This document shows, one piece after another, positions 4,471-32,672 of a DNA stretch of 32,672 nucleotides; positions within the stretch are counted from its first letter, which is position 1, and each line of letters begins with the position of its first letter. The stretch is taken from contig JAILQQ010000266.1 of the NCBI GenBank assembly GCA_024698885.1, positions 1 through 32,672 on the forward strand, read 5' to 3'. The position numbers and the translations under genes were made by a program. The notes beneath the pieces were generated by a model that saw nothing but the letters and a program-made list of their open reading frames with translations, searched no databases and was not told the DNA's origin. The DNA comes from Lachnospiraceae bacterium. Its GTDB lineage: Bacteria > Bacillota > Clostridia > Lachnospirales > Lachnospiraceae.

Positions 4471-4503
4471 GATCCGGTCTGCCTGCTGACCGGATCATTT
4501 CAT
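4471..4503 (+). repeat. Dispersed repeat, hairpin-3 part only
   Basis: GATCCGGTC (4471-4479), loop TGCCTGCT, GACCGGATC (4488-4496), followed by ATTTCATT. This is the third hairpin plus tail of the dispersed repeat (compare GATTCGGTC...GACCGAATCATTTCCT at 16552-16580) with a compensated T-to-C / A-to-G change in the stem. It overlaps the 3' end of the DUF6449-like permease gene. Confidence 0.6.
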
Positions 4504-6740
4504 TATTCCTTGCTCTCCTCAAGCACCTCCATCACAAAGGGCGGGCACTCGCCGTTGCGGATCCGGTAGGACACCATGAAATAAGTTCTGCTGCTGCCGC
4601 TGTTATTTCCGTTCCGGTAATACGCGTCCAGATATACGACCGGTTCGGTCTGTTTTAACTGATCCTCCTGCAGGATCCAGTTCATCGAATAATATTCATC
4701 ATAGATGACATGCGGCATGATCTCCCGGATCTCGTCCTTTTCTTCAAAGGTCGCGTTCATCGAGTAATCGTCCATATAGCAGTATGCGTCGATCTGCTCG
4801 ACCTCATCGCTCTCGTAGGTCGTAAGCGGTGAAAAGCCGGCCTGCTCAAGCAGCGCGATCGTCTTTTCAAAGGACGGATAAATATACATGTAATACTGGC
4901 TGTCGTAATAATGGTACTCCTGATTATAGACTCTCGATACCAGGCAGCCTACCGGATATTCCTCCTTTAATGATTCCAGGGTCTGCGCCCTGAGTTCGCT
5001 CCTGTAGGTATCGAGGATATTGTCGATCTGCTGCGGCGTTTCGTCAAAGGGGATACTGTTTCTCGGATCCTCATAGTAGAGCGTGCCGATCGTATCGTTT
5101 TTCGCCGTCAGCTCGGGGAAGACTGCTTCCTTGAAGGCGTCCTCCGCATAAATCTCCGAAAGGGCGGAAAGCATCTCCTCGTCACAGTAGTTGACCAGGT
5201 ACTGTCTGTATATTTCCCGGCCGTTATTCATACGGTAATGATAATAGGTCGTGCCGTAGGTGGCAAGCTCGTCATACAGTGCACTGTCTTCATAGGTTAC
5301 GGGGGGCGTGAACTCGGTGTTTCCCGCATGCAGGATCATATCCATCCGAAGGCTTTTCGCGTTTTCGATCCCGGAGCCCGCAAGCTTCTGAACAGCCTCA
5401 CTGTCAGACAGCGCCATCCGTTCCATCCTGACCTCAAAATTTGACGGATAATACCGGAACATATCCAGTCCCAGATCCGCCGTGTCCATGCCGTACTCCA
5501 GACGGCTCTGCAAGCCGTTCACGGACAATCCCACCGAGGCGACCTGATCGGCCCGGGGCAGGTAACTGTCATAGCCGAAGACGTCAAAGATAAAGCAAAG
5601 CGCGATCACAGCCGCAATCCCCGCGCCGGCACACAGCGATACAGGTCTTTTGAAGCAGGCCTTAAAATCAAACTCAAAGATGATCTCTGCCACAGCATGG
5701 GTGATCAGTAATCCGCCGAAGAAGCCGAAGACGAACCAGCTCATTTTTCCGTTTGTGATCGTACGGAAGGCTAACGCGCCAAATAACGCCGCCGGGATCA
5801 GAAGGAAGACCTTAATAAAGGGCTTGGATGCCGGAAAGGCGATCGCCTTGCCTGCTGCTTCCGAGGGCCGTTTCATGATCAGCTTCCGGCATAATATATA
5901 CAATATAACGGTCACTATTAAGTAGACAATCGTCGTGGCGGCAACATCACCCGGGATCCCTAACGTCTCCAGGATCGTAAAGTCCTTCATGAGCCGGTTC
6001 TCGGAGGAAATGATCGTGCCCAGCGCGGCAAAGGGCGAGGTAAACGCAAATTCCTTAAGGAAGGAATAATGCCCTGGTTCATAATAGGTGACAAAGAAGA
6101 CCGTCCGGCAGATATACAGCAGGGTACCGTACACCAGGCCGCCGATCGTCAGGACGAAGGCTCCCATCAGGGCTACGACCGTATTTCCCGTTCCGACGGA
6201 AGCAAGAACCACCAGGGTATACATACAGGTATAGAATACGATCACGATCAGCGCGCAGAGCAGTCCGTATGCGAAGGTACCACCGGTCACAAAACCGCGG
6301 CTTGCGCCGATACCGGCGCTTAAAAGATGCGCCGCGAGATAGGGAATGGCAAAGATCAGGATCCCGTTCACATACGCAGCGTCAAACAGACTGACCCGTT
6401 TCACCGGGAGCGCGCCGTACATATCCCCCTTTACCCTGCTGTGCAGGTAAAGCATGCCCTGAAGGCCGTTCACCAGTGCCAGGCCGGCGCTTAAAAGCAG
6501 AACCGGTATATTGGCAAAGCTCAGGATATTCCCGAAGAATTGCGCCTGCACCTCGGGAAGCGTTGTCAAAAGCAGCGCCAGGTCCTCCTGAAAAGAACCG
6601 ATATTCAGCAATGTATAGATCGGCAGTGCGAAAAGGCAGCCGAGGATCGAAAGCGCGATCGGCCAGAGGCGTCTTTTCAGATTTTCCCGCATGAGCGTGA
6701 AGAGCCCAGCAAAATCAGAAGATGATTTTTTTGATGTCAT
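4503..6740 (-). CDS. ABC transporter permease, DUF6449-like
   Basis: A 745-residue membrane protein. The N-terminal half (about residues 25-390) carries multiple hydrophobic segments in the style of ABC-2 type permeases. The C-terminal half is a large soluble, Tyr- and Glu-rich domain, probably extracytoplasmic, resembling the DUF6449 region of Clostridial permeases found in YtrA-type operons. ATG 6740 overlaps the last 26 bases of the ATPase gene, so translation is coupled. The gene order regulator-ATPase-permease matches Ytr-like ABC operons, which respond to cell-envelope stress or antibiotics; the substrate cannot be read from sequence. A copy of the dispersed repeat overlaps its 3' end. 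Confidence 0.75.
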   Translation of the reverse strand: MTSKKSSSDFAGLFTLMRENLKRRLWPIALSILGCLFALPIYTLLNIGSFQEDLALLLTTLPEVQAQFFGNILSFANIPVLLLSAGLALVNGLQGMLYLHSRVKGDMYGALPVKRVSLFDAAYVNGILIFAIPYLAAHLLSAGIGASRGFVTGGTFAYGLLCALIVIVFYTCMYTLVVLASVGTGNTVVALMGAFVLTIGGLVYGTLLYICRTVFFVTYYEPGHYSFLKEFAFTSPFAALGTIISSENRLMKDFTILETLGIPGDVAATTIVYLIVTVILYILCRKLIMKRPSEAAGKAIAFPASKPFIKVFLLIPAALFGALAFRTITNGKMSWFVFGFFGGLLITHAVAEIIFEFDFKACFKRPVSLCAGAGIAAVIALCFIFDVFGYDSYLPRADQVASVGLSVNGLQSRLEYGMDTADLGLDMFRYYPSNFEVRMERMALSDSEAVQKLAGSGIENAKSLRMDMILHAGNTEFTPPVTYEDSALYDELATYGTTYYHYRMNNGREIYRQYLVNYCDEEMLSALSEIYAEDAFKEAVFPELTAKNDTIGTLYYEDPRNSIPFDETPQQIDNILDTYRSELRAQTLESLKEEYPVGCLVSRVYNQEYHYYDSQYYMYIYPSFEKTIALLEQAGFSPLTTYESDEVEQIDAYCYMDDYSMNATFEEKDEIREIMPHVIYDEYYSMNWILQEDQLKQTEPVVYLDAYYRNGNNSGSSRTYFMVSYRIRNGECPPFVMEVLEESKE

Positions 6741-7614
6741 AGCCTTCTACCCCCGTTTCACTGATAAATATTTCTTCTAAGGAAAGCGGCAGAACCTCTA
6801 AAAAGACGGGTTCGCTTTTATTCAGAAGATCGACGATCTCATCCCTGTTCCCCTTCACCGTCAGCGTGATCAGGGAACCGCGGGTCTCCTCGTTTAAGAT
6901 ATGAAGCCTGTCCCGCAAAGACGCGATCCCGTCCTGCCCGGGAACCAGCTGTATCTTATGGATATCGCTCTTCATATGGTCGATATCCTCGGAAAGCAGC
7001 ACGCCGCCCTGATGCAGCAGTCCCACCGAATCGCAGATATCCTCCAGTTCCCGGAGGTTATGGGACGCAATAACAGGCGTAAACCCTCTTTCCGCGATAT
7101 CCGACGCGAACAGGCTCTTCACGCCCTGGCGCATGACCGGATCCAGTCCGTCAAAGGTTTCGTCGCAGTACATGTACTTCGTCATGGCGGACAGTCCCAG
7201 AATGATCGCAAGCTGCTTTTTCATTCCCTTTGAAAAGGTATTGATCTTTCTTTTCGGATTCAGTTCAAAGCGCCTCATCAGATCCGCATAGCGGGAAAGA
7301 TCATACCGGGGATAGATCTTTGCGTAAAACTGCGCCATGTCATCGGGCGTCCCGTTGGAAAAGAAATACGGGTCATCCGAAATATAAAAGAAACTCCCCT
7401 TCACCGACGGATTTTCAAATACCTCTCTTCCGTCTATTAACAGATGCCCGTCATCCTGCTTAAGTACACCGGCCGCGATCCGTAAAAATGTGCTTTTCCC
7501 GGCGCCGTTGGTGCCGATCAGCCCGAAGACCTTCGCTTCCTCGATCGTAAGGGAAACGTCATCCACGGCCCGGACCTCATCAAAGTTTTTTGTGATATGC
7601 GATGCCGTTATCAT
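6715..7614 (-). CDS. ABC transporter ATP-binding protein (YtrB-like)
   Basis: A 299-residue cytoplasmic ATPase. The start is ATG 7614-7612, overlapping the GntR stop as TGATG with GGGAGGAAAGC upstream; an open extension to 7662 has no such site. Visible motifs are Walker A GTNGAGKST (about residues 34-42), signature SKGMKKQ, Walker B YMYCDETFDGLDP and switch histidine ASHNLRE. About 90 C-terminal residues form the accessory domain usual in ABC-2 type ATPases. Its 3' end overlaps the permease gene. It energises the DUF6449-like permease; the signature SKGMKKQ is a variant of the LSGGQ motif common in this subfamily. Confidence 0.88.
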   Translation of the reverse strand: MITASHITKNFDEVRAVDDVSLTIEEAKVFGLIGTNGAGKSTFLRIAAGVLKQDDGHLLIDGREVFENPSVKGSFFYISDDPYFFSNGTPDDMAQFYAKIYPRYDLSRYADLMRRFELNPKRKINTFSKGMKKQLAIILGLSAMTKYMYCDETFDGLDPVMRQGVKSLFASDIAERGFTPVIASHNLRELEDICDSVGLLHQGGVLLSEDIDHMKSDIHKIQLVPGQDGIASLRDRLHILNEETRGSLITLTVKGNRDEIVDLLNKSEPVFLEVLPLSLEEIFISETGVEGYDIKKIIF

Positions 7615-8012
7615 CAGCTTTCCTCCCCCTTTCCTATCTCTTTCCCGGTCTTCCCCCGGCATTCCCTGATCCGCTCGATCAGCCGCTCCCGCGAAAGGCC
7701 GATGGCCTCGGCTCTGTTAGCCAAAGAATCCTGCTCAAGCAACAGCTCCTCCTGCTTCTTTGGCAGGAGCTGTTCCAGACCTCCGGCAAAGCTTCCCCGG
7801 CCGGAAACCGAGTAGATCAATCCCTTCTGTTCCAGAACGCCATACGCCTTCTGTACCGTATTCGGGTTGATCGAAAGTTCAACCGCAAGCGCCCGCACCG
7901 AGGGCAATGCCTCATTCTGCGCGATCACGCCCGCTAACATCAGTTCCTCCAGACGGTCGCTGACCTGCTCATACAGCGGTCTCTTATCCCTGAAATCAAT
8001 ATCGATCAGCAT
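7614..8012 (-). CDS. GntR-family regulator, YtrA type
   Basis: A 132-residue transcription factor. Residues 10-75 form a GntR winged helix-turn-helix (RPLYEQVSDRLEELMLAG, then LPSVRALAVELSINPNTVQK, then GLIYSVSGRGSFA). The C-terminal part is only a short helical tail, typical of the YtrA subfamily, which lacks a large effector domain. It is the first gene of the operon with the ABC ATPase and permease and very probably autoregulates it through the palindrome at 8087-8113, just downstream of the -10 box. The 5' leader contains a copy of repeat hairpin 1 (8030-8060). Confidence 0.88.
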   Translation of the reverse strand: MLIDIDFRDKRPLYEQVSDRLEELMLAGVIAQNEALPSVRALAVELSINPNTVQKAYGVLEQKGLIYSVSGRGSFAGGLEQLLPKKQEELLLEQDSLANRAEAIGLSRERLIERIRECRGKTGKEIGKGEES

Positions 8013-8029
8013 TTTTTTCTCCCAAATTC

Positions 8030-8060
8030 TGCGCCGGCCTGCTTTGCGGCCGTATGCTTA
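8030..8060 (+). repeat. Dispersed repeat, hairpin-1 only, in the ytrA-like leader
   Basis: TGCGCCGGCC...GCGGCCGTATGC followed by TTA corresponds to hairpin 1 of the dispersed repeat (consensus TGCGCC-stem-GTGCGCTTAGG) with altered stem bases. It lies in the untranslated leader between the predicted promoter (8111-8139) and the GntR start at 8012. Hairpins 2 and 3 are absent. Confidence 0.5.
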
Positions 8061-8086
8061 CAGTTCCTTATTGTTCTATGGGTTTT

Positions 8087-8113
8087 AAGTGTACTAATAT
8101 CATTAATACACTT
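8087..8113 (-). promoter_or_regulatory. Operator-like palindrome of the YtrA-type operon
   Basis: A 27-base near-perfect palindrome: AAGTGTA (8087-8093), 13-base centre CTAATATCATTAA, TACACTT (8107-8113). It overlaps the downstream edge of the -10 box and the expected transcription start. YtrA/GntR proteins bind inverted repeats of this form, so it is the natural operator for the regulator encoded immediately downstream. Repression by occlusion of RNA polymerase is inferred. Confidence 0.75.
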
Positions 8114-8139
8114 ATAGCATAAAAAATATGGTCTGTCAA
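8111..8139 (-). promoter_or_regulatory. Sigma-A-type promoter of the YtrA-type operon
   Basis: On the minus strand, a consensus -35 TTGACA (complement of 8134-8139), 17-base spacer and -10 TATAAG (complement of 8111-8116). Transcription would begin at about 8104, inside the operator palindrome, and run through the leader repeat to the GntR start. Confidence 0.8.
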
Positions 8140-8160
8140 CCATACTTTTTATTATTTCCC

Positions 8161-8213
8161 TGCGCCAATTTGCATTGCAAATTGTGCGCTTAGGCATGAA
8201 CCCTGGTTCATGC
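8161..8213 (+). repeat. Dispersed repeat, hairpins 1 and 2
   Basis: TGCGCC, AATTTGC/GCAAATT stem, GTGCGCTTA, then GGCATGAACC/GGTTCATGC stem. Relative to other copies the hairpin-1 stem shows G-to-A with the paired C-to-T. Hairpin 3 is missing. It lies between the end of the RsbW-like gene and the promoter of the YtrA-type operon and may also act as a transcript end. Confidence 0.8.
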
Positions 8214-8215
8214 GT

Positions 8216-8623
8216 TTAAAGTTCTTTATATAAGGTAAGGATATTCTGCCCGTCCTCATGGCGGTAGAGCACCTTGTCCATACTCTTTTTCACCATGAAA
8301 ATACCGAGGCCTCCGATCTGGCGCTCCTCTGCGGACAGCGTAACATCCGGATCCTCTTTCTCCAGAGGATTATAGGGAATCCCCTCGTCTATAAAGGTGA
8401 TCGAGACAGCGCGCGGTGAATCATACGTTTCGAGCTGGATCGTTGCCGACCCGACCTGCGGCGTATAGGCATAATGCGCTATATTGACATATATCTCCTC
8501 TACCGCTATATCAATCTGCGTCTGCAGTTTCATGGAGCAATCCATTGCTTCCAGCGTTTCATCCATAAAGGCAAGTACCTGATCCAGATTTTCTACTCTG
8601 GCCTCCAGCTTGAGTTCACGCAA
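8216..8623 (-). CDS. RsbW-like ATP-binding protein (HATPase_c_2)
   Basis: A 135-residue protein starting at TTG 8623, with AGGGAG eight bases upstream. It is a single GHKL ATPase domain: N-box EEIYVNIAHYAY (residues 42-53, Asn47), G1 box DEGIPYNP (79-86) and G2 box GGLGIFMVKKSMD (104-116). This is the layout of RsbW/SpoIIAB-type anti-sigma factors and serine kinases, which phosphorylate STAS antagonists. No sigma factor, STAS protein or PP2C phosphatase is in the window. It starts 37 bases after the chemoreceptor gene and is probably co-transcribed with it, which suggests a link between the receptor and partner switching; that link is inference. Confidence 0.85.
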   Translation of the reverse strand: MRELKLEARVENLDQVLAFMDETLEAMDCSMKLQTQIDIAVEEIYVNIAHYAYTPQVGSATIQLETYDSPRAVSITFIDEGIPYNPLEKEDPDVTLSAEERQIGGLGIFMVKKSMDKVLYRHEDGQNILTLYKEL

Positions 8624-8660
8624 ACCAGTTTCTCCCTTCTACTATTGTGATCATTACAAA

Positions 8661-10757
8661 TTATCCCTGCCGCCAATGGAATTTTTCGGTGATCCGCACC
8701 AACTCCTTGACCGCCTCTCTGGCATCCTGCAGCTTCTGATAGCCCTGCTCATTCGCGGAACGCATCTCGTCGGAATGGGAGGCGATATCATTGACACGTT
8801 CGGAGGAATTTCCGGTCATGCTGTTGATATCATCCGCTGCTGTGACGATCTCTTCGATATGGTGCTCAAGGGTATCGGTACCCATTCTGACGCGGGACAT
8901 CACATCGATAAAGAAGTCCGCGTCCTCCCTGTATCTGGCGCCCGATTCCTGGAACATCCTGTAATCGATCAGGACCGTTTCCTCTAAGAAGGACATCAGC
9001 TCCGCGATACACTCGTTCATATGATCGACCGCATCGCTCACCTCGTCGACGATACCGCTGATATTGTCAACGGTCTTTAAGGTCTGGGCCGCGAGGGACC
9101 CGATCTCGTCTGCCACGACGGCAAAGCCTCTGCCCGCGTCACCGGCTCTGGCCGCCTCGATACTGGCGTTTAAGGCAAGAAGATTCGTCTGTGAGGAAAT
9201 ATTCTTGATATCATCCGTCAGCTCATGGATCCGCTCCACAGCCTTGGATTTTTCAATGGCTTCATTGCTCTTGACCTTCATCACGTCATACATCTGATGG
9301 GTCTTGTCACTGGAAAGCGTACTGCGTTTTTCCATGTTCTCAGCCCGGTTCTGGATCTCCTTCGAGTCAGCCTCGCTCTGTACCGCCAGATCAAAGATCT
9401 CCTGGGTCTGGTTACGCACCTCTTCGACATTGTGCACGATCTGCTCGGTATTGGCCGTAGCCTGCTGCATGCCTGCCGCCAGATGCCCGGTTTCCTCATT
9501 ATTATCGTCAAGCTTCGCGTTATTGTCCCGCATAATACCGTCCAGATCATCGATACTGCCGCTGATCGTCCGCTCCACATCCGTAAAGGAGTCCACCATA
9601 TCCCTAAAGGCCGAGCGCATATCATGCACACCGGTTGCCATCTTTCCGATCTCATCCTTGTGGCCCATCAGATCCTGTCCGCCCTGAGAGGAGGTCAGAT
9701 CCAGTCTCGCCGTCTGGTCAATGATATCCGTCAGCGCATGGATCGGCTTCGACAATCCGCTTCCCACGATAAAGCCCACAACAGCGCTGACCAAAATGGC
9801 AAGAGCTACCGCCCCGAGGATGATATAAAGCAGTGTATAGGCTTCCGCGAAGATCTCCGATTTCGGTGCCGTTAAAAACATCAGCATCCCGTTATGGAGT
9901 TCATTGAACACGAGCAGCTTATCAACGCCCTTATAGCTGTAATCGAAGGCTTTATTGCTGTTTGCCGGATCGGAAATATAGCTGTTAATACCGGAAAGCG
10001 AAGCATCGAGGCTCGAAACAGCGGTTCCGCTCTCCTGTCCCTTATGATAAAGGATATCGCCGGTCTGGCTCGTAATGAAGCCATAACCCGTCTGGAACAG
10101 GGAAACAGAGTCTACCATGGCCGTCAGCATGTCGAAGGAGATGTCCATCCCCACGATACCGATGGAGGTTCCGTCCTCGGCATATAACGGCACTACATAA
10201 GAGATCATATAGACATTGATATTGGCGTTCAGATAGGGATCCATCCAGATCGGAGCTCCGTTGTTGACCGGAATATAGTACCAGCCCACATGCTCAAGAT
10301 CCGAGGGATCATACATCGTAAAGTCCGTCGGCGTAACCGAATCGAAGGGCTCCGACAGGGAATTACGGGTCAGAAAGCACCCGGAGGTCGGGTTTGAGTA
10401 GTCGGGATTATAACGGATATAGCTTGTGATGGCGCCGTCCGTATGCTCGGCAAAGCGGTACACCTGATCGAGCACCTCATAAGTATAGGAATCCGCGTAA
10501 TTACGATCCGAAAAGAACCGCCGCTCGCTCAGTCCGCTCTGGACAATATCCGCCAGAATATTAACAGAGAGCTCCACCCGCTTGATCACGGAATCCACCT
10601 CATTGGAAACGGAGACAGCCTTATAGATCATATTTTCCGTGGAATCCTGCTCCGAGATCCGCATCGTGCTGCGGATAGAAAGCGTTCCCACGATAACCGC
10701 CGTCAGCAGAGAGCAGAGCAGGATGCCCAGAATGATTTTCAAGCGAATCGTTTTCAT
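8661..10757 (-). CDS. Methyl-accepting chemotaxis protein with dCache-like sensor
   Basis: A 698-residue receptor. There is a transmembrane helix at about residues 7-29, a large extracellular dCache-like domain (about 35-300, including [20 protein letters not shown] and GIVGMDISF), a second membrane helix at about 307-332 and a HAMP region after it ([15 protein letters not shown]). The cytoplasmic coiled coil carries the conserved hairpin tip near 525-560 ([20 protein letters not shown], then [10 protein letters not shown]), which binds CheA and CheW. No CheR-docking pentapeptide is visible at the C-terminus. The region WYYIP...W.DPY is typical of receptors for small amines or amino acids, but the ligand cannot be assigned. 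The ATG has AAAGGA upstream. A repeat-derived hairpin lies in the leader. Confidence 0.9.
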
Positions 10758-10873: not shown

Positions 10874-13066
10874 TTAACCCGCGGCCTCGTCCAGCTGCTG
10901 TCTGGCCACTAGCTCGGCAAAGAAACCGTTTTGCGCGATAAGCCCCTCGTAGGTGCCGTCCTCGATGATCTTGCCCTGGTCGAGCACGATGATGCGGTCG
11001 CAATGCCTTATCGTCGAAAGTCTGTGGGCGATCACGATCCTGGTGCATTTCAGCTCGTTCAGGGACTCGGATACCTTTTTCTGGGTCAGGTTATCAAGTG
11101 CGCTTGTCGCCTCGTCAAACATTAAGATCTTCGGCTTCGGCGCGATCGCGCGGGCGATCATCAGCCGCTGGCGCTGTCCGCCGGAAATACCGCCCTGTCC
11201 TTCGGAAATGATCGTAAACATCCCCATGGGCATCGCCTTGATATCCTCCGCCATGCCGGCAAGCTCCGCGGCCTCCCAGGCTGCCTGCAGATTAAGATGG
11301 GGCGCGGATATCACGATATTGGAAAAAATATCGCCCTGGAAAAGCTTCCCGTTCTGCAGCACGGTCCCGACCTTCCCGCGAAGTGATTTCAGATCGATCT
11401 GTTTCAGATCCCGTCCGTCATAGTAGACCGCTCCCTTCTGCGGCTCCTCAAAGCCTAACAGGATACGCATCAGTGTGGATTTCCCGCAGCCCGTCTTCCC
11501 GACGATCGCTACATACTGACCCGGCCGGATCTTCATCGAAAGGTCATCGATCACAAGAGGCATATTCTCCGAATAGCGGAACGAAACATTGCTTAACTCT
11601 ATGCCGCCGGACAGCTTCTCGATGATCACCTTGTCCTCGGATACCTCGGGCACCGTTTCCATGATCGGCTGCGCCATGGTCAGGATCGGCTTGATATTGG
11701 CTACGGACGTCGCGATCCCCGCCATCGACATAAACGCGCCGCTGACCATGCTGTAGGCCGAGTTAAACGCAAAGTAATCCGATACGCTCACCCCGCTTTT
11801 AACGGCAAGATAATACATCACAATGGTTCCGATCATGGAAACCGCCGAAGTCAGCACGGCATTGAGTTTTAAGAAAAGCGGCGGATTATACTGATACGCG
11901 GCCTCCTCCGCATACAGCCTGCCCCAGCGGGCAAAGGCTCTTTTTTCGGCGCCTGCGAGACGGATCTTCTGTATCCCGGAGATCAGGGCATAGCTCATGC
12001 CTTTTTCCAGAGAGGCCGCCTGCATCATCTCCCGGGAGACCTTTACCTGTATTAAGGAGGTTGTCACGGTAATAATGAGCGTGATCAGCGTGATCAGTAA
12101 AGCGGGCGCTGCCAGTTCCCTCGCGTAATGAAATACCTGTCCGATATAGATCAGAGAGAACAGTGAGGTAACCCCGGTCGACAGGCCGATATTGATCAGC
12201 TCATTCACGAGCGTCCCCATATATTCCGTCCGGTTGCTCAGGTCACCGGCGCTGTAATTCTGGAAAAAGGGTGCCGGCAGTGAAAAAACACGCATCATCG
12301 TAGCTGCCTGTACGTTCTGGCTCACCCGCATCGTGACCCTCTTCAGGAACAGATCCTGTACGGTGCCAAAGAGCATGGAGCTGATGGAGGTACAGATCAG
12401 GAACGACGCCACCGCGGATAATACCCGGTAGCTCCCGGAATCCACCACATCCGAAAACAGAATACTGTTGATCCTCGGCGTCAGCATCCCGACAAGCGTT
12501 ACCACGAGGCCAAAGATCAGATACCAGACCAGACTGATCTTATCCACATTCTCCCAGATATACGCCAGAATATCGGAGACCTTTAACGCCTTGGTCGGAA
12601 ACGGCTTGTAAAACGCGTATGCTTCCTCTGAAAACAGCTTTTCAGACTGCTTATCCACTCTTTTCCTGTCGCCGCTGCGGGGATCCGTATAGATATAGCC
12701 GGAAATGCCGGAAGGAATTAACGCCACCGGCTCTCCGTCCGCCTTAAAGGTGGTCAGCATCGCGCCGGCTGCGTCGCGGTGCCATCCCTCCGTCAGCTCC
12801 ACGATACGGAACATGATCCCGCTGGGGCGCAGAAGGTAATCTAATATCTCCTCGATGTTTTCGAGCTTTTCCGGTATATCCCGTGATTTGACCCGGTAAT
12901 ACTTCAGGATCTCATCCACCGCGTCCTTCGCACGAATCCTCTCATCCTGCAGGATCGCGGACAGGTGCTTCCCCATAACGGAACCGGCAATACGCAGGAA
13001 AGAATCCTCAAACGTATTATTGTCAGCCTTTTTTCTTATCTCTATCTGTTCATCAAACCAGCCCAT
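10874..13066 (-). CDS. NHLP-type export ABC transporter, permease/ATPase without peptidase
   Basis: A 730-residue half-transporter. The first ~165 residues form a soluble N-terminal domain without C39 catalytic residues. A six-helix ABC membrane domain follows (about 175-450), then a nucleotide-binding domain with Walker A GKTGCGKST (about 520-528), signature ISGGQRQR (about 628), Walker B ILMFDEATSALD and switch region IAHRLST. The layout matches the second transporter of NHLP (nitrile-hydratase-leader-peptide) bacteriocin export systems, which works with a C39-peptidase ABC transporter. The gene lies 22 bases after the C39 transporter gene with GAGGAG upstream. The two proteins probably form a heteromeric exporter. 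Confidence 0.85.
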   Translation of the reverse strand: MGWFDEQIEIRKKADNNTFEDSFLRIAGSVMGKHLSAILQDERIRAKDAVDEILKYYRVKSRDIPEKLENIEEILDYLLRPSGIMFRIVELTEGWHRDAAGAMLTTFKADGEPVALIPSGISGYIYTDPRSGDRKRVDKQSEKLFSEEAYAFYKPFPTKALKVSDILAYIWENVDKISLVWYLIFGLVVTLVGMLTPRINSILFSDVVDSGSYRVLSAVASFLICTSISSMLFGTVQDLFLKRVTMRVSQNVQAATMMRVFSLPAPFFQNYSAGDLSNRTEYMGTLVNELINIGLSTGVTSLFSLIYIGQVFHYARELAAPALLITLITLIITVTTSLIQVKVSREMMQAASLEKGMSYALISGIQKIRLAGAEKRAFARWGRLYAEEAAYQYNPPLFLKLNAVLTSAVSMIGTIVMYYLAVKSGVSVSDYFAFNSAYSMVSGAFMSMAGIATSVANIKPILTMAQPIMETVPEVSEDKVIIEKLSGGIELSNVSFRYSENMPLVIDDLSMKIRPGQYVAIVGKTGCGKSTLMRILLGFEEPQKGAVYYDGRDLKQIDLKSLRGKVGTVLQNGKLFQGDIFSNIVISAPHLNLQAAWEAAELAGMAEDIKAMPMGMFTIISEGQGGISGGQRQRLMIARAIAPKPKILMFDEATSALDNLTQKKVSESLNELKCTRIVIAHRLSTIRHCDRIIVLDQGKIIEDGTYEGLIAQNGFFAELVARQQLDEAAG

Positions 13067-15554: not shown

Positions 15555-15753
15555 TTCGTCCTACTCTCCTCTATATTATCTTTAAAATTTTACTCAATAT
15601 CTTCGATATCGTATCTGTTCAGAACCCTTTGGCTTCTGAACAGATACGCGGCCCGTCATTGAAAGATTTTGCTTTGCAAAAGGACGGGCCGCATCGCAAA
15701 ACTTACATTTTGGTACGCCCCAAACAGCAAGTGCTTCGGGCTGTCCTGAACAG
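15555..15753. other. Highly structured intergenic region upstream of the export genes
   Basis: A perfect 15-base inverted repeat (15610-15624 with 15634-15648; CGTATCTGTTCAGAA / TTCTGAACAGATACG) abuts a second stem GCGGCCCGTC / GACGGGCCGC (15648-15657 with 15683-15692), which encloses a small TTTTGC/GCAAAA hairpin. A further CTGAACAG lies at 15746-15753. TACTCAATATCTTC (15591-15604) is repeated as TACTCGATATCTTC (15755-15768), flanking the structured part like a target-site duplication. No open frame longer than a dozen codons with a start was found in the transcript direction. It could be a small non-autonomous insertion, a leader/attenuator or a small RNA. Confidence 0.55.
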
Positions 15754-16248
15754 TTACTCGATATCTTCTTCGGTTTCGGTCTCCTGCACCGCGTTCTGGT
15801 ACCAGTATTCGTATCTCGCGTTATCCCTGCTGACAGAGGCCATTAATATGAAAAAAACAAGCAGCAGGATATCGAGGATAACAGCCATCGCGACCCAGAA
15901 GCCCGTTCTGTCCCTAAGGCGTTTTTTCGGCCTTGCTTCCTCCAAAGGCTCCGCCGGAACAAAACCCGCGGAATCCGTCATCTTCTGCGCAGAGGTTTTC
16001 TTCTTCGCCAGACTCTGGTCGGTCTTTGCGGCAGGCTTCTTCCCGTTTCCGGCAGGTTTTTTTCCGCCTGCTGCCGCCTGCTTTCCGTTTGCGGCAGGCT
16101 TTTTCTCAGTTGCGGCAGCCTTTTTCTCGCTTGCGGCAGCCTTTCCCGTTCCTGTCCCCGTCTGCTGTTTCACAGTCTTTGCGGCAGGCTTCTCGGATGC
16201 TTTTTTCACCGGCTTCTTTCCCGTACTCTTTTCCGTACTCTTTGCCAT
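15754..16248 (-). CDS. Lys/Ala/Pro-rich single-pass membrane protein
   Basis: A 164-residue protein of unknown function. Residues 1-90 are a low-complexity, strongly basic tract of repeated (A)KKPA(A)-, GKKPA- and EKKAAA-like units resembling histone H1-type tails. Then comes a linker, a transmembrane helix (about 117-138, WVAMAVILDILLLVFFILMA) and a short acidic tail ending ETETEEDIE. The positive-inside rule puts the basic tail in the cytoplasm, where it could contact nucleic acid or acidic protein. The ATG has AGGGAG upstream. It lies upstream of, and on the same strand as, the export transporter genes. The tail codons at the stop are part of a near-perfect direct repeat with 15591-15604. 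Confidence 0.7.
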   Translation of the reverse strand: MAKSTEKSTGKKPVKKASEKPAAKTVKQQTGTGTGKAAASEKKAAATEKKPAANGKQAAAGGKKPAGNGKKPAAKTDQSLAKKKTSAQKMTDSAGFVPAEPLEEARPKKRLRDRTGFWVAMAVILDILLLVFFILMASVSRDNARYEYWYQNAVQETETEEDIE

Positions 16249-16291: not shown

Positions 16292-16333
16292 CTGCGCCGA
16301 TCCGCTTGCGGATCGTGCGTTCGGGCATGAGCC
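16292..16333 (+). repeat. Dispersed repeat, hairpin 1 and half of hairpin 2
   Basis: CTGCGCC, GATCCGC/GCGGATC stem with TT loop, GTGCG, then GGGCATGAGCC without the second arm. The hairpin-1 stem shows compensated changes against other copies (TTTG/CAAA becomes TCCG/CGGA). It lies in the leader of the Lys/Ala-rich protein, directly after the predicted transcription start. Confidence 0.75.
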
Positions 16334-16341
16334 TTTTATTC

Positions 16342-16370
16342 CTTATAGAATTATATACTGTATCCGTCAA
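16342..16370 (-). promoter_or_regulatory. Promoter of the Lys/Ala-rich protein gene
   Basis: On the minus strand, TTGACG (complement of 16365-16370), a 17-base spacer and TATAAG (complement of 16342-16347). The transcript would start at about 16335, run through the repeat at 16292-16333 and may also reach the export genes. Confidence 0.7.
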
Positions 16371-16471: not shown

Positions 16472-16498
16472 AGTCTTCAGACCGAATCATTTCCTTTC
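16472..16498 (+). repeat. Tail fragment of the dispersed repeat
   Basis: GTCTTCAGACCGAATCATTTCCT: the loop, second arm and tail of hairpin 3, identical to 16559-16581, directly joined to the complete copy that starts at 16499. It shows that copies occur head to tail. Confidence 0.75.
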
Positions 16499-16581
16499 TG
16501 CGCCGGTTTGTTCACAAACCGTGCGCTTAGGCATGATCATCGGATCATGCCGATTCGGTCTTCAGACCGAATCATTTCCTT
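16499..16581 (+). repeat. Dispersed repeat, complete three-hairpin copy
   Basis: TGCGCC; hairpin 1 GGTTTGT (16505-16511) with ACAAACC (16514-16520); GTGCGCTTA; hairpin 2 GGCATGATC (16530-16538) with GATCATGCC (16543-16551); hairpin 3 GATTCGGTC (16552-16560) with GACCGAATC (16565-16573); tail ATTTCCT. All three stems are perfect. Hairpin 3 and the tail supply the last codons and stop of the 120-residue membrane protein. Confidence 0.9.
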
Positions 16582-16924
16582 TATTCTCTTCTTCTTCAAA
16601 GAAATCATCATCAAAGCCGTCCTCTTCATCGTCGACCTCGTCATCGAAATCATCGAGATAATCCGGCGTAAAATAGCAGTACAGGCCGTATACCACAACA
16701 GCAAAAACGATCACGAAGACCACCGCTCCGACGATCAGTCCGACACGGCTTTTCTTCTTTTCCTCGGCGTCGATCTCTTCTTTTCTCTTTAACAGCTCGC
16801 CGACCTTTACGGCGTTGAGCACCTCGCCCGCCTTCGCACGGCCAAGCTCCTCCTGCGCCTTGATGGTCTTCAGGATATCGTCCAGTCTGTCAAAATTTAA
16901 TTTATCTATATTGATCCGTTCCAT
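16562..16924 (-). CDS. Single-pass membrane protein with acidic C-terminal tail
   Basis: A 120-residue protein of unknown function. Residues 1-60 form a charged helical region (DRLDDILKTIKAQEELGRAK, then EEIDAEEKKK), residues 62-84 a transmembrane helix (GLIVGAVVFVIVFAVVVYGL), and residues 88-115 an extremely acidic tail (DDFDDEVDDEEDGFDDDFFE). The last seven codons (NKGNDSV) and the stop lie in a dispersed repeat copy, so the original C-terminus may have been altered by repeat insertion. The ATG has AAAGGA upstream, and an extended -10 (TGCTAAACT, complement of 16957-16965) lies 33 bases upstream with no good -35. Topology by charge leaves the acidic tail outside, opposite to the basic tail of the neighbouring protein. 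Confidence 0.7.
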   Translation of the reverse strand: MERINIDKLNFDRLDDILKTIKAQEELGRAKAGEVLNAVKVGELLKRKEEIDAEEKKKSRVGLIVGAVVFVIVFAVVVYGLYCYFTPDYLDDFDDEVDDEEDGFDDDFFEEEENKGNDSV

Positions 16925-26375: not shown

Positions 26376-26394
26376 ATTAGTTCCCGGATATGCC

Positions 26395-26423
26395 TTTACA
26401 TTTGTTTTTTCTTGTGCTACTAT
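26395..26423 (+). promoter_or_regulatory. Promoter of the cold-shock protein gene
   Basis: TTTACA (26395-26400), a 17-base spacer and an extended -10 TGCTACTAT (-10 at 26418-26423). The leader would be about 40 bases, much shorter than the long thermosensing leader of E. coli cspA. It diverges from the bactofilin operon promoter, with 19 bases between the two -35 boxes. Confidence 0.7.
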
Positions 26424-26468
26424 GTATTAGATGTTTTGCATCAATTATTTTTTCGGAGGTTTCAGTAA

Positions 26469-26669: not shown

Positions 26670-26761
26670 TCCCTGTCCGTGAGCGTATTCTGCTACATGT
26701 TCTATATAGATTTGAAACAGTAAAACGCGAGAGTATGATATCGAACTGGATATTTATCTAA

Positions 26762-26789
26762 AAAAAGATGCGCCAAAGCGCATCTTTTT
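26762..26789 (+). terminator. Bidirectional terminator between the cold-shock and HD-GYP genes
   Basis: AAAAAGATGCGC (26762-26773), loop CAAA, GCGCATCTTTTT (26778-26789): a 12-base perfect stem with A-tract and T-tract. It serves the cold-shock gene on the plus strand and, by symmetry, can end the HD-GYP transcript on the minus strand. Confidence 0.9.
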
Positions 26790-26791
26790 AT

Positions 26792-26820
26792 GTGCCGGTC
26801 TGCCTGCAGACCGCGCTTTT
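26792..26820 (+). repeat. Dispersed repeat hairpin 1 forming a second terminator
   Basis: GTGCC, GGTCTGC/GCAGACC stem, GCGC and then TTTTTT. The order TGYGCC-stem-GCGC is that of hairpin 1 of the dispersed repeat, with a different stem sequence, and the T-run makes it terminator-like on the plus strand. It abuts the stop of the HD-GYP gene. Confidence 0.55.
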
Positions 26821-27990: not shown

Positions 27991-28750
27991 GACATACCTC
28001 CTCAAAGGAAAGGGAACCCCCGAACAAACTCAGCGCACTGCCGACCGTAAAGTCAAGCCGTCCGTTTCCGGCTATCCTCAACCGCTCAATATCCGCAAGC
28101 GAAGCGATCCCTCCCGCATAGGTTACCGTATAAGGGAAAGAAGCCAAAAGGGTCACGAGCTCTTCATCAAGCCCTCCCTTTTTTCCTTCCACATCAACGC
28201 CGTGTACCAGAAATTCATCGCAATACGGTGCCAGCCCGTCAAAAAGCGCCCTGCTCACCTGTTCCTTCGTAAATTCCTGCCAGCGTTTCGTCACTACAAA
28301 ATAATGCCCGTCCTTCTTCCGGCAGCTTAAGTCGATCACGACATGCTCCCTGCCTGCTTCCCTCTTTAAAGACGTAAGGCGCGAAAGATCGGGTTCACCA
28401 TCTGTAAAAATATAAGACGTCACGATCACATGGGAAGCCCCCATGGCAAGATATTCCGCCGCGTTCTCCGCCGTAACGCCGCCGCCGAGCTGCAGCCCGC
28501 CCGGAAAAGCCGCAAGCGCCTTTCCCGCCTGGAGCCGGTCCTTCTCGTAGGCTTCCGTTCCTGCCGCATTGAGCAGCGCGATATGGCCTCCCTGCAGTCC
28601 CTCTTTGCGGTAAAGCGCCGCGTACCAGGCCGCGTCTTTTTCGGAAACAAAATTCTGCACCGGCAGGTCTTTGCCGTTTTCCGAAAGCGAACCGCCGACT
28701 AACTGCTTCACGAGACCGTCATGAATATCAATACAGGGTCTGAACCGCAA
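27968..28750 (-). CDS. hisA: ProFAR isomerase HisA, eukaryotic type
   Basis: A 260-residue (beta-alpha)8 enzyme of histidine biosynthesis that converts N'-5'-ProFAR to PRFAR. The start RFRPCIDIHDG..KQLVGGSL and length match the eukaryotic-like HisA family (as in yeast HIS6) rather than the usual bacterial HisA. Catalytic Asp8 (CIDIH) and Asp140 (VVIDLSCRKKDG) are present; phosphate-binding GG motifs occur (QLGGGVTAENA, TYAGGIAS). The start is TTG 28750 with AGGAGA upstream, two bases after the fbp stop. It is outside any his operon, which is unusual for an amino-acid gene and suggests it supplies a separately encoded pathway. Confidence 0.88.
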   Translation of the reverse strand: MRFRPCIDIHDGLVKQLVGGSLSENGKDLPVQNFVSEKDAAWYAALYRKEGLQGGHIALLNAAGTEAYEKDRLQAGKALAAFPGGLQLGGGVTAENAAEYLAMGASHVIVTSYIFTDGEPDLSRLTSLKREAGREHVVIDLSCRKKDGHYFVVTKRWQEFTKEQVSRALFDGLAPYCDEFLVHGVDVEGKKGGLDEELVTLLASFPYTVTYAGGIASLADIERLRIAGNGRLDFTVGSALSLFGGSLSFEEVCHEYNHAG

Positions 28751-28752
28751 GA

Positions 28753-30708
28753 CTACTCTCCTTTTTCCACTAACACCCCTTCCCGGTAAGCGCGAAGAAG
28801 TTTTTCCAGCTGGGAGATCGAGTCTCTGATTTCATAGCCCGTATCGGTATCCGCAACCCTTAAGCGAAGAGACGAGGTCTCCACGATAAAAGCATCGGAA
28901 TAGATATCCGTTTCGTTTAATATCGCGGACTCTTTGGATTCAAAGGGTTCATGCGCTGCCAACCACAGCCCGTGGGAATTGAACACGAGCGTATAGCCCG
29001 CGATCCCGGTCTTGCTCTGATAGGCCTTGGAGAAGCCGCCGTCGATGATCATCAGCTTTCCGCCGCATTTGATCGGCGTCTCTCCCTTTTTCTGCTCGAT
29101 CGGCACATGCCCGTTTATGATGTGGGAAAAACGCTCGTCAAGCCCGAATTCCCGGAGTATCCGGTTGATCGTCTCCACATCGTCCAAAAGCTCATAGTAT
29201 TTGTTTTTCTTTTCCTCGTGGGTCCGGCTGTCTTCGATGAAGTAACGCTCAAAGGTGGTCATCTTCTCCTTGCCGAAAACCGGGGAATTCGGACTGGCCC
29301 AGATATAATAGAGGATATCAAGGCCCTTTCGCTTTTCCTCTTCGTCCGTCGCGTAGTAGCCGCGTCTGGCATAATGCTCCAAAATATCATAGAGCGCCTT
29401 ACCGCTGTAGTCCCTGTCAAAGATCCGGACGTTCCGGAAATCGCCGTTATCGTCAAGAGGCACGCAGCCGTGATAAAGGAGATTGGAATTATAAACCTTA
29501 TAGAGGCTCCCCTTCGCGAACAGAAAGCGCACATGCTTCTGCAGCTTTTCGCAGTTGACAAAGGCGTGCACTAACCGCTCCATCACCTGCTGCTCCTCCG
29601 GATTCAGGGCGTAAGGGTCGGCCGGGTCGATCGTCGGAAAGGCCATATCAAGCATCGGGTAGGTCTTCCCTTCCACGGTGACTGTTCCCGCGTGAAAATC
29701 GATCTTGTCAAGTAACAGTCTGTCCTCCATCATAAAGAAGGGATTCCGCCTGATGCACTGCCCCTCGAGCTTGAACTGGATCACCGAGATAGCCTTGTGG
29801 ATCTTCGTATCTAACTCCAGATCCTTGGTATTATACCCTTTATTATAGTGAATGTTAAATAATTCACAATCCTCGTCCTGGTAGGTATTCAGGGCAAAGG
29901 TCGCAAGCGGCACCAGGTTGATGCCGTAGCCCTCCTCGAGCGTATCGAGGTTCCCGTAACGGGCCGCGATCCTTAAAACAGTCGCGATGCAGGCTTCACT
30001 CCCTGCTGCCGCGCCCATCCAGAGCACATCATGATTGCCCCACTCGATATCCACCGAATGGTACTGTCTTAAGGTATCCATCACGATATGCGGGCCGGGG
30101 CCTCTGTCAAACACATCCCCGATGATATGCAGATGGTCGATCACGAGCCGCCTGATCAGGTCGCAGAGCGCGATGATGAATTCCGGCGCCCGCTCGATCC
30201 GGATGATCGTATGGATGATCTCATTATAATAGGCTTCCTTATCCTCGACCTCAACCTTTTCGGTGATGAGCTCCTCGATCACATAGGCAAAATCCTTCGG
30301 GAGTGCCTTCCTGACCTTGGAACGGGTATATTTCGAGGCAACCCGCTTCGTGATATGCACGAGACGGTTTAGTGTGATCTTGTACCAGTCGCTCAGATTA
30401 TCCTCGGTCTTTCGGATGATCTCAAGCTTTTCCTTCGGATAATAGATAAGCGTCGCCAGGCTCTTCTTATCCCGGATGCTTAAGGTATTGCCGAACTCCT
30501 CGTCGATCTTTCGCTTGATCGAGCCCGACCCGTTGTTCAGAACGTGGATAAACTGCTCGTATTCCCCGTGGATATCCGTCATGAAATGCTCGGTCGGCTT
30601 CGGCAGATTCAAAATAGACTGCAGATTGATGATCTCCGTGGAGGCCGATGCGATGGTCGGATACTGCTCCGCCAGAATTTTCAGATAAGTAAGCTCCATC
30701 CCGTCCAT
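28753..30708 (-). CDS. fbp: Fructose-1,6-bisphosphatase, class III
   Basis: A 651-residue Firmicutes-type gluconeogenic enzyme that hydrolyses fructose-1,6-bisphosphate to fructose-6-phosphate. It is built on a calcineurin-like metallophosphatase core: TDIHGEY (44-50), GDVFDRGPG (about 199), GNHDVLW (about 224) and a later INGHVPIEQKKGE. The size fits the B. subtilis enzyme (about 670 residues). I take ATG 30708 (GGTGAAG upstream) rather than the TTG at 30726, which lies inside dapB. It starts seven bases after the dapB stop and ends two bases before hisA. Confidence 0.95.
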   Translation of the reverse strand: MDGMELTYLKILAEQYPTIASASTEIINLQSILNLPKPTEHFMTDIHGEYEQFIHVLNNGSGSIKRKIDEEFGNTLSIRDKKSLATLIYYPKEKLEIIRKTEDNLSDWYKITLNRLVHITKRVASKYTRSKVRKALPKDFAYVIEELITEKVEVEDKEAYYNEIIHTIIRIERAPEFIIALCDLIRRLVIDHLHIIGDVFDRGPGPHIVMDTLRQYHSVDIEWGNHDVLWMGAAAGSEACIATVLRIAARYGNLDTLEEGYGINLVPLATFALNTYQDEDCELFNIHYNKGYNTKDLELDTKIHKAISVIQFKLEGQCIRRNPFFMMEDRLLLDKIDFHAGTVTVEGKTYPMLDMAFPTIDPADPYALNPEEQQVMERLVHAFVNCEKLQKHVRFLFAKGSLYKVYNSNLLYHGCVPLDDNGDFRNVRIFDRDYSGKALYDILEHYARRGYYATDEEEKRKGLDILYYIWASPNSPVFGKEKMTTFERYFIEDSRTHEEKKNKYYELLDDVETINRILREFGLDERFSHIINGHVPIEQKKGETPIKCGGKLMIIDGGFSKAYQSKTGIAGYTLVFNSHGLWLAAHEPFESKESAILNETDIYSDAFIVETSSLRLRVADTDTGYEIRDSISQLEKLLRAYREGVLVEKGE

Positions 30709-30715
30709 ACGTACT

Positions 30716-31471
30716 TCACCCGACAACGTCTGACATCGAATAATAGCCGGGGGCCTTTCCCTTCAGGTATCCGGCTGCCGCAAGCGCCCCTTTTGCAAAG
30801 ATGGCTCTCGAATACGCGCGGTGGGAAAAGGTGATGACCTCGTCCTGTCCCGCGAAGATCACGTCATGATCGCCGACGATGGTACCGCCCCGTACGGCCG
30901 ATATGCCGATCTCCGTTTTGCCGCGCTTTTGCCGGACCTTGCTTCTGTCATACACATAGTCCATATCCGCGTCAAGGGCCTCATGGATCGTATCCGCAAG
31001 CGCAAGCGCCGTTCCGCTTGGCGCGTCCAGTTTCGTCCTGTGATGCTTTTCCACGATCTCGATATCAAAGCCCGATCCGTAGAGCACCCGGCTGACTTCC
31101 TTAAGGGCCTTCTGAAGGACATTCACACCAAGCGACATATTGGCGGACTTAAGCACCGCTATCTCCTTCGAAGCCTCCGTTAACGCCGAAAGCTGTTCCT
31201 CGGACAGTCCCGTCGTGCATTCCACAAGCGGGAGCTTACGGCGTACGCTGTAGGCGATGACCGCGTCAACCGCGGCTGCGTTGCCGAAATCGATGATCAC
31301 GTCGGCTTCCTCTTTGCAGTCCTCGATCTTCTCATATACCGGGAAATCGGAAAGCTGCCCCCCCGCGATATCCACGCCCGCAACGATCCGCATCTCGGGA
31401 TCAGTCCCTGCGGTCTCCGTCACCATGCGTCCCATGCGCCCGTTGCAGCCGTGCAGAATAATATTTACCAT
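30716..31471 (-). CDS. dapB: 4-hydroxy-tetrahydrodipicolinate reductase
   Basis: A 251-residue NAD(P)H-dependent reductase, the second committed step of lysine and diaminopimelate synthesis. It has a Rossmann motif GCNGRMG (8-14), the catalytic HH at 143-144 and Lys147 in EKHHRTKLDAPSGTA. Diaminopimelate feeds peptidoglycan synthesis. ATG 31471 lies one base after the dapA stop. Length and motifs are normal. Confidence 0.95.
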   Translation of the reverse strand: MVNIILHGCNGRMGRMVTETAGTDPEMRIVAGVDIAGGQLSDFPVYEKIEDCKEEADVIIDFGNAAAVDAVIAYSVRRKLPLVECTTGLSEEQLSALTEASKEIAVLKSANMSLGVNVLQKALKEVSRVLYGSGFDIEIVEKHHRTKLDAPSGTALALADTIHEALDADMDYVYDRSKVRQKRGKTEIGISAVRGGTIVGDHDVIFAGQDEVITFSHRAYSRAIFAKGALAAAGYLKGKAPGYYSMSDVVG

Positions 31472-31472
31472 A

Positions 31473-32357
31473 TTACAATACCCCGTATTCCTTCATGGCC
31501 TTTTTAAGCAGCTCCGTATGCTCCGGTTCGATCTCACAGAGCGGATGGCGAAGGACGCCCGAATCCCTTCCCTGCAGCTCAAGAGCCTTCTTCACAGGCA
31601 TCGGGTTCACTTCGCAGAACAGCGCGCTGCAAAGAGCCAGCGCCTTCAGCTGAAGCGCACAGCATTTCTGTATATCGCCCGCAAAATAAGCCTCTGTGAT
31701 ATCATGCGTCTGTTTCGGCGCGATATTCGAAAGGACCGAGATCACGCCAAGGCCGCCTAAGGACATGATGGGCGTGATCTGATCATCATTGCCCGAATAC
31801 AGATCAACGCATCCCTCCGCTAAGCTCATAAGCTTTGCGATCTGGGAAATATTGCCGCTGGCTTCCTTGATCCCGACGATATTCTCAACGTTCCGGCAGA
31901 GATAGACCGCCGTTTCCGGGGCAATGTTAAGGCCCGTGCGGCTCGGCACGTTGTACAGGATGATCGGGAGCTTCGTGCTCTCCGCTACGATCCGATAATG
32001 CTCGATCAGCCCCTTCTGCGTCGCCTTGTTATAATAGGGCGTCACCAAAAGCAATCCGTCCGCCCCGCATTTTTCCGCTTCCTGCGCCCGGAATACCGCT
32101 TCGTCCGTGCTGTTTGAGCCGGCCCCGGCGATCACAGGGATCCTGTGGTTCACCACATCCACGCAGTGCTTTACGACCTTCGTATGCTCCTCGTGGCTTA
32201 AGCAGGAGGATTCCCCTGTCGTGCCGCATACAATGATCGCGTCCGTTTTTCCCTCTATCTGATACTCTATCTGCTCCGTAAATCTCTCGTAATCGACCGC
32301 CCCGTCCTTTTTAAACGGCGTACAGATCGCAACGCCAGCACCCTTAAAAATCGCCAT
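31473..32357 (-). CDS. dapA: 4-hydroxy-tetrahydrodipicolinate synthase
   Basis: A 294-residue class I aldolase that condenses pyruvate with aspartate semialdehyde. Schiff-base Lys164 (GIKEASG), Tyr135 and Arg140 (YNVPSRTG) and Thr46-Thr47 (GTTGES) are all present. The start is ATG 32357 with AGGAGGAACC upstream; an open extension to 32399 would begin inside a repeat and lacks a ribosome-binding site. It is the first gene of a dapA-dapB-fbp-hisA-HD-GYP string with gaps of 1-7 bases or overlaps, driven by the promoter at 32486-32514. The leader contains a complete three-hairpin repeat. Confidence 0.95.
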   Translation of the reverse strand: MAIFKGAGVAICTPFKKDGAVDYERFTEQIEYQIEGKTDAIIVCGTTGESSCLSHEEHTKVVKHCVDVVNHRIPVIAGAGSNSTDEAVFRAQEAEKCGADGLLLVTPYYNKATQKGLIEHYRIVAESTKLPIILYNVPSRTGLNIAPETAVYLCRNVENIVGIKEASGNISQIAKLMSLAEGCVDLYSGNDDQITPIMSLGGLGVISVLSNIAPKQTHDITEAYFAGDIQKCCALQLKALALCSALFCEVNPMPVKKALELQGRDSGVLRHPLCEIEPEHTELLKKAMKEYGVL

Positions 32358-32378
32358 TCCGGTTCCTCCTCTCTGAAT

Positions 32379-32465
32379 CTGCGCCGACTTGCCCTGCAAG
32401 TCGTGCGCTTAGGCATGATCTTCGGATCATGCCGATTCGGTCTGCCCGCAGACCGAATCATTTCC
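32379..32465 (+). repeat. Dispersed repeat, complete copy in the dapA leader
   Basis: TGCGCC (32380-32385); hairpin 1 GACTTGC/GCAAGTC (32386-32392 with 32396-32402); GTGCGCTTA; hairpin 2 GGCATGATC-TTCG-GATCATGCC (32412-32433) with a stable UUCG loop on the plus strand; hairpin 3 GATTCGGTCTGC...GCAGACCGAATC (32434-32459); tail ATTTCCT. It lies wholly within the untranslated leader between the dapA promoter and its start. Confidence 0.9.
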
Positions 32466-32485
32466 TATATCAACCCATCACTCGA

Positions 32486-32514
32486 ATCATATCATCTCGG
32501 AATTGTCATGTCAA
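32486..32514 (-). promoter_or_regulatory. Promoter of the dapA operon
   Basis: On the minus strand a consensus -35 TTGACA (complement of 32509-32514), 17-base spacer and -10 TATGAT (complement of 32486-32491). The start would be near 32479, giving a leader of about 120 bases that is mostly the repeat at 32379-32465. No lysine-riboswitch-like sequence is apparent. Confidence 0.8.
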
Positions 32515-32517
32515 TTA

Positions 32518-32606
32518 CGCGCCAATTTGCGCAGCAAATTGTGCGCTTAGGCATGATCCTTGGTTCATGCCGATTCGGTCAGGTTCCCTGACCGAATCAT
32601 TTCCTT
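32518..32606 (+). repeat. Dispersed repeat, complete copy, first of a tandem pair
   Basis: CGCGCC; hairpin 1 AATTTGC/GCAAATT (32524-32530 with 32534-32540); GTGCGCTTA; hairpin 2 GGCATGATCC/GGTTCATGCC (32550-32571, one mismatch); hairpin 3 GATTCGGTCAGG/CCTGACCGAATC (32572-32598, 12 pairs); tail ATTTCCTT. The hairpin-3 stem is extended by paired bases not found in other copies. Confidence 0.9.
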
Positions 32607-32608
32607 AT

Positions 32609-32672
32609 CTGCGCCGATTTGCTCCGCAAATCGTGCGCTTAGGCATGAACCTTGGTTCATGCCGATTCGGTC
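32609..32672 (+). repeat. Dispersed repeat, copy cut by the window end
   Basis: TGCGCC (32610-32615), hairpin 1 GATTTGC/GCAAATC, GTGCGCTTA, hairpin 2 GGCATGAACC-TT-GGTTCATGCC (perfect), then GATTCGGTC at the right edge. It follows the previous copy after a few bases, in the same orientation. Confidence 0.85.

Follow-up and report, generated by a model that had tools for sequence, protein, structure and literature searches.

A REP-like family of three-hairpin repeats with a target-like motif at ribosome-binding sites in Lachnospiraceae

Which process has spread the three-hairpin units that recur along a Lachnospiraceae contig, three of them upstream of dapA, and keeps their stems paired while the stem sequences change? 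We analyzed this 32,672-bp stretch, called the window here, which is the whole of contig C220 in the genome G000 (the window genome), together with copies in two relatives, Lachnospiraceae bacterium UBA3814 (G200) and G205. The units form a new repeat family that resembles repetitive extragenic palindromes (REPs). Its unit of three hairpins is unusual, a target-like motif is seen at the ribosome-binding site, and no mobiliser was found. The family's copy number, covarying stems, linkers common to three species, sites mostly unshared between species, fixed orientation and target-like motif support the reading we consider probable, namely that these are short, non-autonomous mobile palindromes working like REPs or like the ends of IS200/IS605 elements.

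Anatomy and covariation of the unit

The unit is about 86 nt long and reads CTGCGCC, hairpin 1, GTGCGC, TTA, hairpin 2, hairpin 3 and ATTTCC. At the foot of hairpin 1, GCGC is paired with the later GCGC, leaving a one-base T bulge; with a pattern that leaves this base free, it is T in 59 of 59 matches in the window genome and in 20 of 20 in UBA3814. Hairpin 2 has the arms GGCATGAAC/GTTCATGCC or relatives of them, and hairpin 3 the arms GATTCGGTCTGC/GCAGACCGAATC or relatives. The right end ATTTCC is exact in 95 of 127 copies, which were selected at no more than one mismatch there. The two copies that we folded gave strong structures on both strands, as DNA and as RNA (z-scores of -7.6 to -10.4). 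Short forms with the plan TGCGCC, hairpin 3, ATTTCC also occur (stretch L127, 5833-5864; L142, minus strand, 12352-12383; L166, near 300-374) and look as if hairpin 1, the linker and hairpin 2 had dropped out between the unit's two GCCGAT direct repeats.

The original prediction held that the stems change in pairs, and named stem changes paired no better than chance as the outcome that would overturn it. Pairing beat the shuffles, both in an alignment of 28 copies and at sites chosen by their linkers. The alignment was made from sequence only, not structure, and was compared with 500 shuffles and with slid controls. Among its 894 cells, 99.0% are paired (21-38% in the slid controls), double changes occur at 14 of 32 pairs (shuffled mean 6.4), and 63 cells are changed on both sides (shuffled mean 13.7). 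None of the 500 shuffles matched the alignment in cells paired, in pairs or cells with double changes, or in covariation score; a fifth measure, further pair types, showed no excess, with 133 of 500 shuffles as high. At linker-only sites, the 7-bp stem of hairpin 1 is perfect in 89 of 111 cases in the window genome, with 26 different left arms (shuffled mean 15), and in 34 of 69 in UBA3814, with 40 left arms (shuffled mean 2.3), while three or more mismatches were found at 5 and 20 sites, respectively.

Complete copies show the same pairing when counted cell by cell, with the border between hairpins 2 and 3 placed for maximal pairing and with 21 of the 127 copies (18 from the window genome, 3 from UBA3814) left out for low pairing scores, many of them mis-ended by the pattern. 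The 64 usable copies of the window genome hold 1635 Watson-Crick, 16 G-T, 8 A-C and 10 other cells; the 34 from UBA3814 hold 857, 23, 11 and 12. In the former set, both bases depart from the commonest pair in 144 Watson-Crick cells, compared to only 34 cells that form no Watson-Crick pair; one-sided intermediates are therefore rare. The wobble asymmetry is not decisive for which strand folds (G-T to A-C is 16:8 in the window genome and 23:11 in UBA3814, the latter becoming 10:11 once one shared wobble is removed). The hairpins assort freely, with 40 stem combinations in 64 copies of the window genome, and among 82 copies there are three equal-length pairs with two or fewer differences. The linkers are common to the three carrier species and the favoured stems differ, in copies that were themselves picked by their linkers. 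The pattern is compatible with a factor that recognises the linkers and for which the stems have only to pair, and the data supports hairpins that are maintained either by selection or in the course of copying.

Distribution, placement and turnover

We found 140 exact copies of GTGCGCTTAGGCATGA in the window genome, compared to none of a reversed control, and 163 matches to GTGCGCTTAGGNATGA, a pattern with GGNATGA, so that the genome holds at least 163 copies. A genome with no further copies, the other outcome named as fatal to the original prediction, is not what we see, and its dispersed, REP-like family is supported. The GTGCGCTTAGGNATGA pattern has no match in 199 other genomes of the family, and a hairpin-1 pattern with a free inner stem matched 1 of 397 family genomes. 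The covariance model R1, built from the 28 copies, identified carriers in 3 of 37 genomes of the genus: the window genome, UBA3814 (94 matches at E <= 0.1) and G205 (8 matches), counts that include weak and opposite-strand matches. A pattern scan of a contig collection from 84,980 species, from which records near the window genome may be absent, returned only UBA3814. The same kind of scan gave no match in viral contigs, and blastn with one copy gave none in plasmids and phages; carriage by phages or plasmids is thus rejected. All three carriers are draft assemblies (97.72% complete and 4.78% contaminated for the window genome; 85% complete for UBA3814 and 94% for G205).

Genomic context was determined for 104 of the at least 163 copies in the window genome, for 47 in 40 stretches of UBA3814 and for 8 in G205, all in stretches chosen around copies and with genes called by a home-made caller. 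No copy lies inside a called gene in the window genome (0 of 104), and 4 of 47 do so in UBA3814. Counting copies within 300 nt as one cluster, we found that 28 of 55 clusters in the window genome and 23 of 43 in UBA3814 have their left end 7-23 nt 5′ of a start codon, compared to 5.1% and 4.1% expected from random intergenic placement. Between co-directional genes, antisense clusters outnumber sense ones by 29 to 2 and by 29 to 1, respectively (58 of 61 antisense); 15 clusters lie between divergent genes and 8 between convergent ones. The stop codon of the upstream gene falls inside the element's tail in 15 of 38 clusters in the window genome and 6 of 32 in UBA3814.

A YTCC-like motif stands 3-4 nt before the left end, and otherwise the left flanks share nothing. 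At 56 start sites, CC is found at offsets 6 and 5 before the unit with frequencies of 0.52 and 0.30; the frequencies are 0.29 and 0.36 at 58 tandem sites (a loose rule that includes some Shine-Dalgarno sites), and 0.28 and 0.26 at 39 other sites, where the remaining offsets average 0.08. Within tandems, the next unit is preceded, in the same register, by ATTTCC, which here is the right end of the element itself. CC is enriched 5-6 nt before the unit, also away from starts, which suggests the Shine-Dalgarno complement as an insertion target. Intergenic CTCC and CTCCT sites lie at starts in 49% and 71% of cases in the window genome and in 31% and 43% in UBA3814. Consequently, a preference for CTCC(T) could explain most of the start bias, and a preference for YTCC part of it.

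We compared sites between species using 34 copies at 22 sites of the window genome whose neighbouring gene has an orthologue in the 0.95 Mb fetched from UBA3814. At 19 of these 22 sites there is no R1 match (E <= 0.01) within 300 nt of the orthologue; therefore, most of the compared copies were gained or lost since the species split. This result supersedes an earlier, less sensitive test that missed degenerate copies (33 of 34 copies without an element at the orthologue; in reverse, 2 with and 3 without among 5). At dapA, the leaders of UBA3814 and G205 keep the Shine-Dalgarno sequence and the start without any element, and UBA3814 also keeps the promoter-like hexamers, which shows that the Shine-Dalgarno sequence at dapA was not brought by the element. 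Among 13 dapA loci inspected in the genus, only that of the window genome carries it.

A probable mobile palindrome and its alternatives

In the mechanism that we propose, a trans-acting enzyme would read the linkers on a folded single strand, cut at TTTCC/YTCC motifs and join the element 3′ of a new YTCC by way of a putative single-stranded intermediate, with IS608 as the model for how such a folded strand may be handled. CTCCT, which is how the Shine-Dalgarno sequence reads on the opposite strand, would be a frequent intergenic match to this target, which would place the element just 5′ of ribosome-binding sites and antisense to the gene. Tandem growth would also be explained because the right end ATTTCC offers the same register as a target.

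Several observations weigh against this mechanism. Part of the conservation of the linkers and right end is built in, as only copies with few mismatches there were selected. Three of the 22 compared sites are shared between the window genome and UBA3814, one of them between the same two genes with different stems (L178/L156), the others being L005/L136 and the degenerate L173/L134. With one genome per species, no insertion was caught between near-identical strains, and the cross-species alignments of filled and empty sites, among which none is clean, do not fix the element's ends. The looser YTCC motif has only 27% of its intergenic sites at starts in the window genome and 20% in UBA3814, and target choice alone would not account for all clusters at starts unless the motif is CTCC(T); selection may contribute the remainder. 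In 48 of 55 clusters in the window genome and 37 of 43 in UBA3814, the written unit is found on the lagging strand, which is rich in C, so that the lagging-strand template carries its reverse complement, and this direction is not the one expected if the written strand were used as in IS608. The strand bias largely follows gene orientation (266 of 308 genes in the window genome and 481 of 551 in UBA3814 are on the leading strand), and lagging-strand placement is also seen in 7 of 8 clusters between convergent genes. Finally, neither enzyme class that we searched for is common to the carriers: Y1_Tnp (PF01797) has no match in the three drafts, and Y2_Tnp occurs only in the window genome, with one gene.

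The original prediction offered movement by a RAYT/Y1 transposase as one option and suggested looking for such a gene flanked by the same hairpins. The family may indeed be a true REP/RAYT or IS200/IS605-derived one whose Y1 transposase was lost from the lineages or is missing from the drafts, an explanation that we regard as rather unlikely. Y1_Tnp genes occur in 18 of the 34 non-carrier genomes of the genus, the hairpins and target motif match the logic described for IS608 in the available portion of PMC5934647, and the carrier drafts are interrupted at repeats, the window contig being an example. However, no Y1_Tnp protein is detectable in the carriers as the mobilising enzyme, and R1 found no element in 17 fetched stretches around Y1 matches from 15 sister genomes or at four further Y1 loci. 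RAYT/Y1 as the mobiliser is not supported on these grounds (no Y1_Tnp in carriers, no element at 21 sister loci); the absence of Y1 is itself not proven, as a repeat-flanked transposase gene may drop out of draft assemblies. A hairpin GGCATGAA..TTCATGCC near a sister-species Y1 gene (L208) resembles hairpin 2, has neither the linkers nor an R1 match, and was set aside as a coincidence. The sister-species Y1 genes (L208-L223) are about 210-300 codons long, RAYT-like in size, and at L222 the gene lies between short hairpins of identical sequence, TAACGGTG..CACCGTTA. A Y2/IS91 rolling-circle mobiliser is not supported either, since Y2_Tnp is not common to the carriers and the fetched 3.6 kb around the one gene holds no R1 match; this gene (L225, contig C209 of the window genome, match 1936-2496) stands behind an apparent tyrosine-recombinase gene, identified by eye. 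Among the matches listed, no half-copies bracket a transposase gene, and by eye no transposase-like repeated family was recognised in the genes beside copies.

The likeness to known systems is partial in each case. BOX elements of Streptococcus pneumoniae are modular, stem-loop-forming intergenic repeats of a Gram-positive genome, and their module plan differs from that of the family. REP/BIME elements associated with RAYT (TnpA-REP) share with it high-copy extragenic palindromes, short conserved tags, varying stems and both clustered and dispersed copies; unlike them, it has three hairpins in a fixed head-to-tail plan and no Y1 gene found in its three carrier drafts. The 28-copy consensus lacks the GTAG/GTGG tag that defines REPs in the portions of PMC6006769 and PMC3733652 available to us. 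The latter, as far as its available text goes, ties REP families to RAYT enzymes in Proteobacteria, Cyanobacteria, Chloroflexi and the PVC group and places REPs predominantly downstream of genes, whereas the family is near starts. The same text describes CGTC-tagged REPs, including Rickettsia palindromic elements, as palindromic repeats without a dedicated transposase; the family resembles them in this respect, but has three hairpins, appears aimed at YTCC and lacks CGTC in its consensus. In the available portion of PMC5934647, the ends of IS200/IS605 elements such as IS608 and ISDra2 carry hairpins nearby, and IS608 retains its target tetranucleotide in the left flank, as the YTCC register is seen left of the unit here. 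In contrast to those elements, no transposase gene was seen in or near units and no guide sequence was identified. A literature search, with subscription papers and preprints not covered, found no description of this three-hairpin family in the portions of text it reached.

Two explanations without a single-strand transposase have to be weighed. The original prediction allowed for a structured RNA family, and the units could be a cis-acting RNA element of leaders and intergenic regions, selected at each gene for processing, stability or translation control. Both strands fold strongly, the place 5′ of the Shine-Dalgarno sequence is fixed, the orientation is antisense, stop codons fall inside the tail, and the transcript of a leader copy would be the reverse complement, itself able to fold. 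However, site turnover argues against a conserved RNA role, 34 of the 37 genus genomes lack the family, dapA at the other loci inspected does without it, and one-sided G-T is not clearly commoner than A-C; we consider this explanation improbable. A known RNA family is rejected, as Rfam has no match in the whole window at the gathering score or in 32300-32672 up to E = 10. A classical miniature inverted-repeat transposable element moved by a DDE transposase would likewise be short, non-coding, dispersed and intergenic. The ends CTGCGCC and ATTTCC are not, however, inverted repeats of each other, and no target duplication was seen: YTCC is all that the left flanks have in common, and the right end belongs to the element itself. 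This makes such an element very improbable.

For short mobile palindromes of the REP-like kind, a stronger claim can be made tentatively. They might be mobile DNA hairpins of an orphan class whose enzyme processes single strands and belongs to neither Y1 nor Y2. Such hairpins would target the Shine-Dalgarno complement and so home genome-wide to translation starts without entering genes, with their stems renewed by paired changes and their enzyme-read linkers kept. A Lachnospiraceae hairpin family that is aimed at ribosome-binding sites, and for which no RAYT was found, would offer a case for testing how palindromic repeats spread and how a general gene-expression signal can serve a selfish element as a gene-sparing landing site. 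It may also alter the expression of core genes such as dapA.

Copies in the window and a second repeat

The window is mostly a run of minus-strand genes that ends in dapB-dapA (gene calls; Pfam). It contains ten copies or remnants, seven found by R1 at E <= 0.01 and three by eye, all on the plus strand. The single orientation of the original prediction therefore stands and its count of at least twelve does not, while its plan of stems joined by conserved linkers is borne out by the R1 copies. Two weak R1 matches on the minus strand, at 32427-32548 and 32565-32640, come from these palindromes seen from the opposite strand and were not counted.

Three tandem copies occupy 32379-32672, all upstream of dapA. 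The complete copy at 32379-32466 (hairpins 1 to 3; 106.4 bits) has its left end 21 nt upstream of the dapA start and sits between a promoter-like hexamer pair and the dapA ribosome-binding site. It is followed by a complete copy at 32517-32605 (93.8 bits) and by a third at 32609-32672, truncated by the contig end (71.2 bits, model positions 1-64). Another complete copy lies at 16498-16580 (90.7 bits); the minus-strand gene 16562-16924 runs into it and stops on a TGA in its tail (residues GNDSV). R1 also found a partial copy with hairpins 1 and 2 but not 3 at 8160-8226 (53.3 bits), hairpin 1 followed by a degenerate rest at 16292-16359 (30.1 bits), and a remnant at 4442-4503 in which hairpin 3 (4471-4502) follows GCACC (24.6 bits, E = 0.0026). 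The copies identified by eye are the right arm of hairpin 3 with its tail at 16473-16497 (repeat family D4), a degenerate hairpin 1 without an R1 match at 8029-8060, upstream of the GntR-family gene 7614-8012, and a doubtful hairpin-1-like remnant, also without an R1 match, at 26794-26816 followed by a T run.

Another repeat rich in hairpins, about 147 nt long, is found at 15611-15757 of the window, where GTATCTGTTCAG...CTGAACAGATAC is followed by GCGGCCCGTC...GACGGGCCGC and the end lies near CTGAACAGTTAC. In the fetched stretches of the window genome it has three long copies (this one, L169 on the minus strand from 15086 and L172 on the minus strand from 10423) and several shorter places, hairpin-only or mixed. 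A hairpin related to it sits in the dapA leader of UBA3814.

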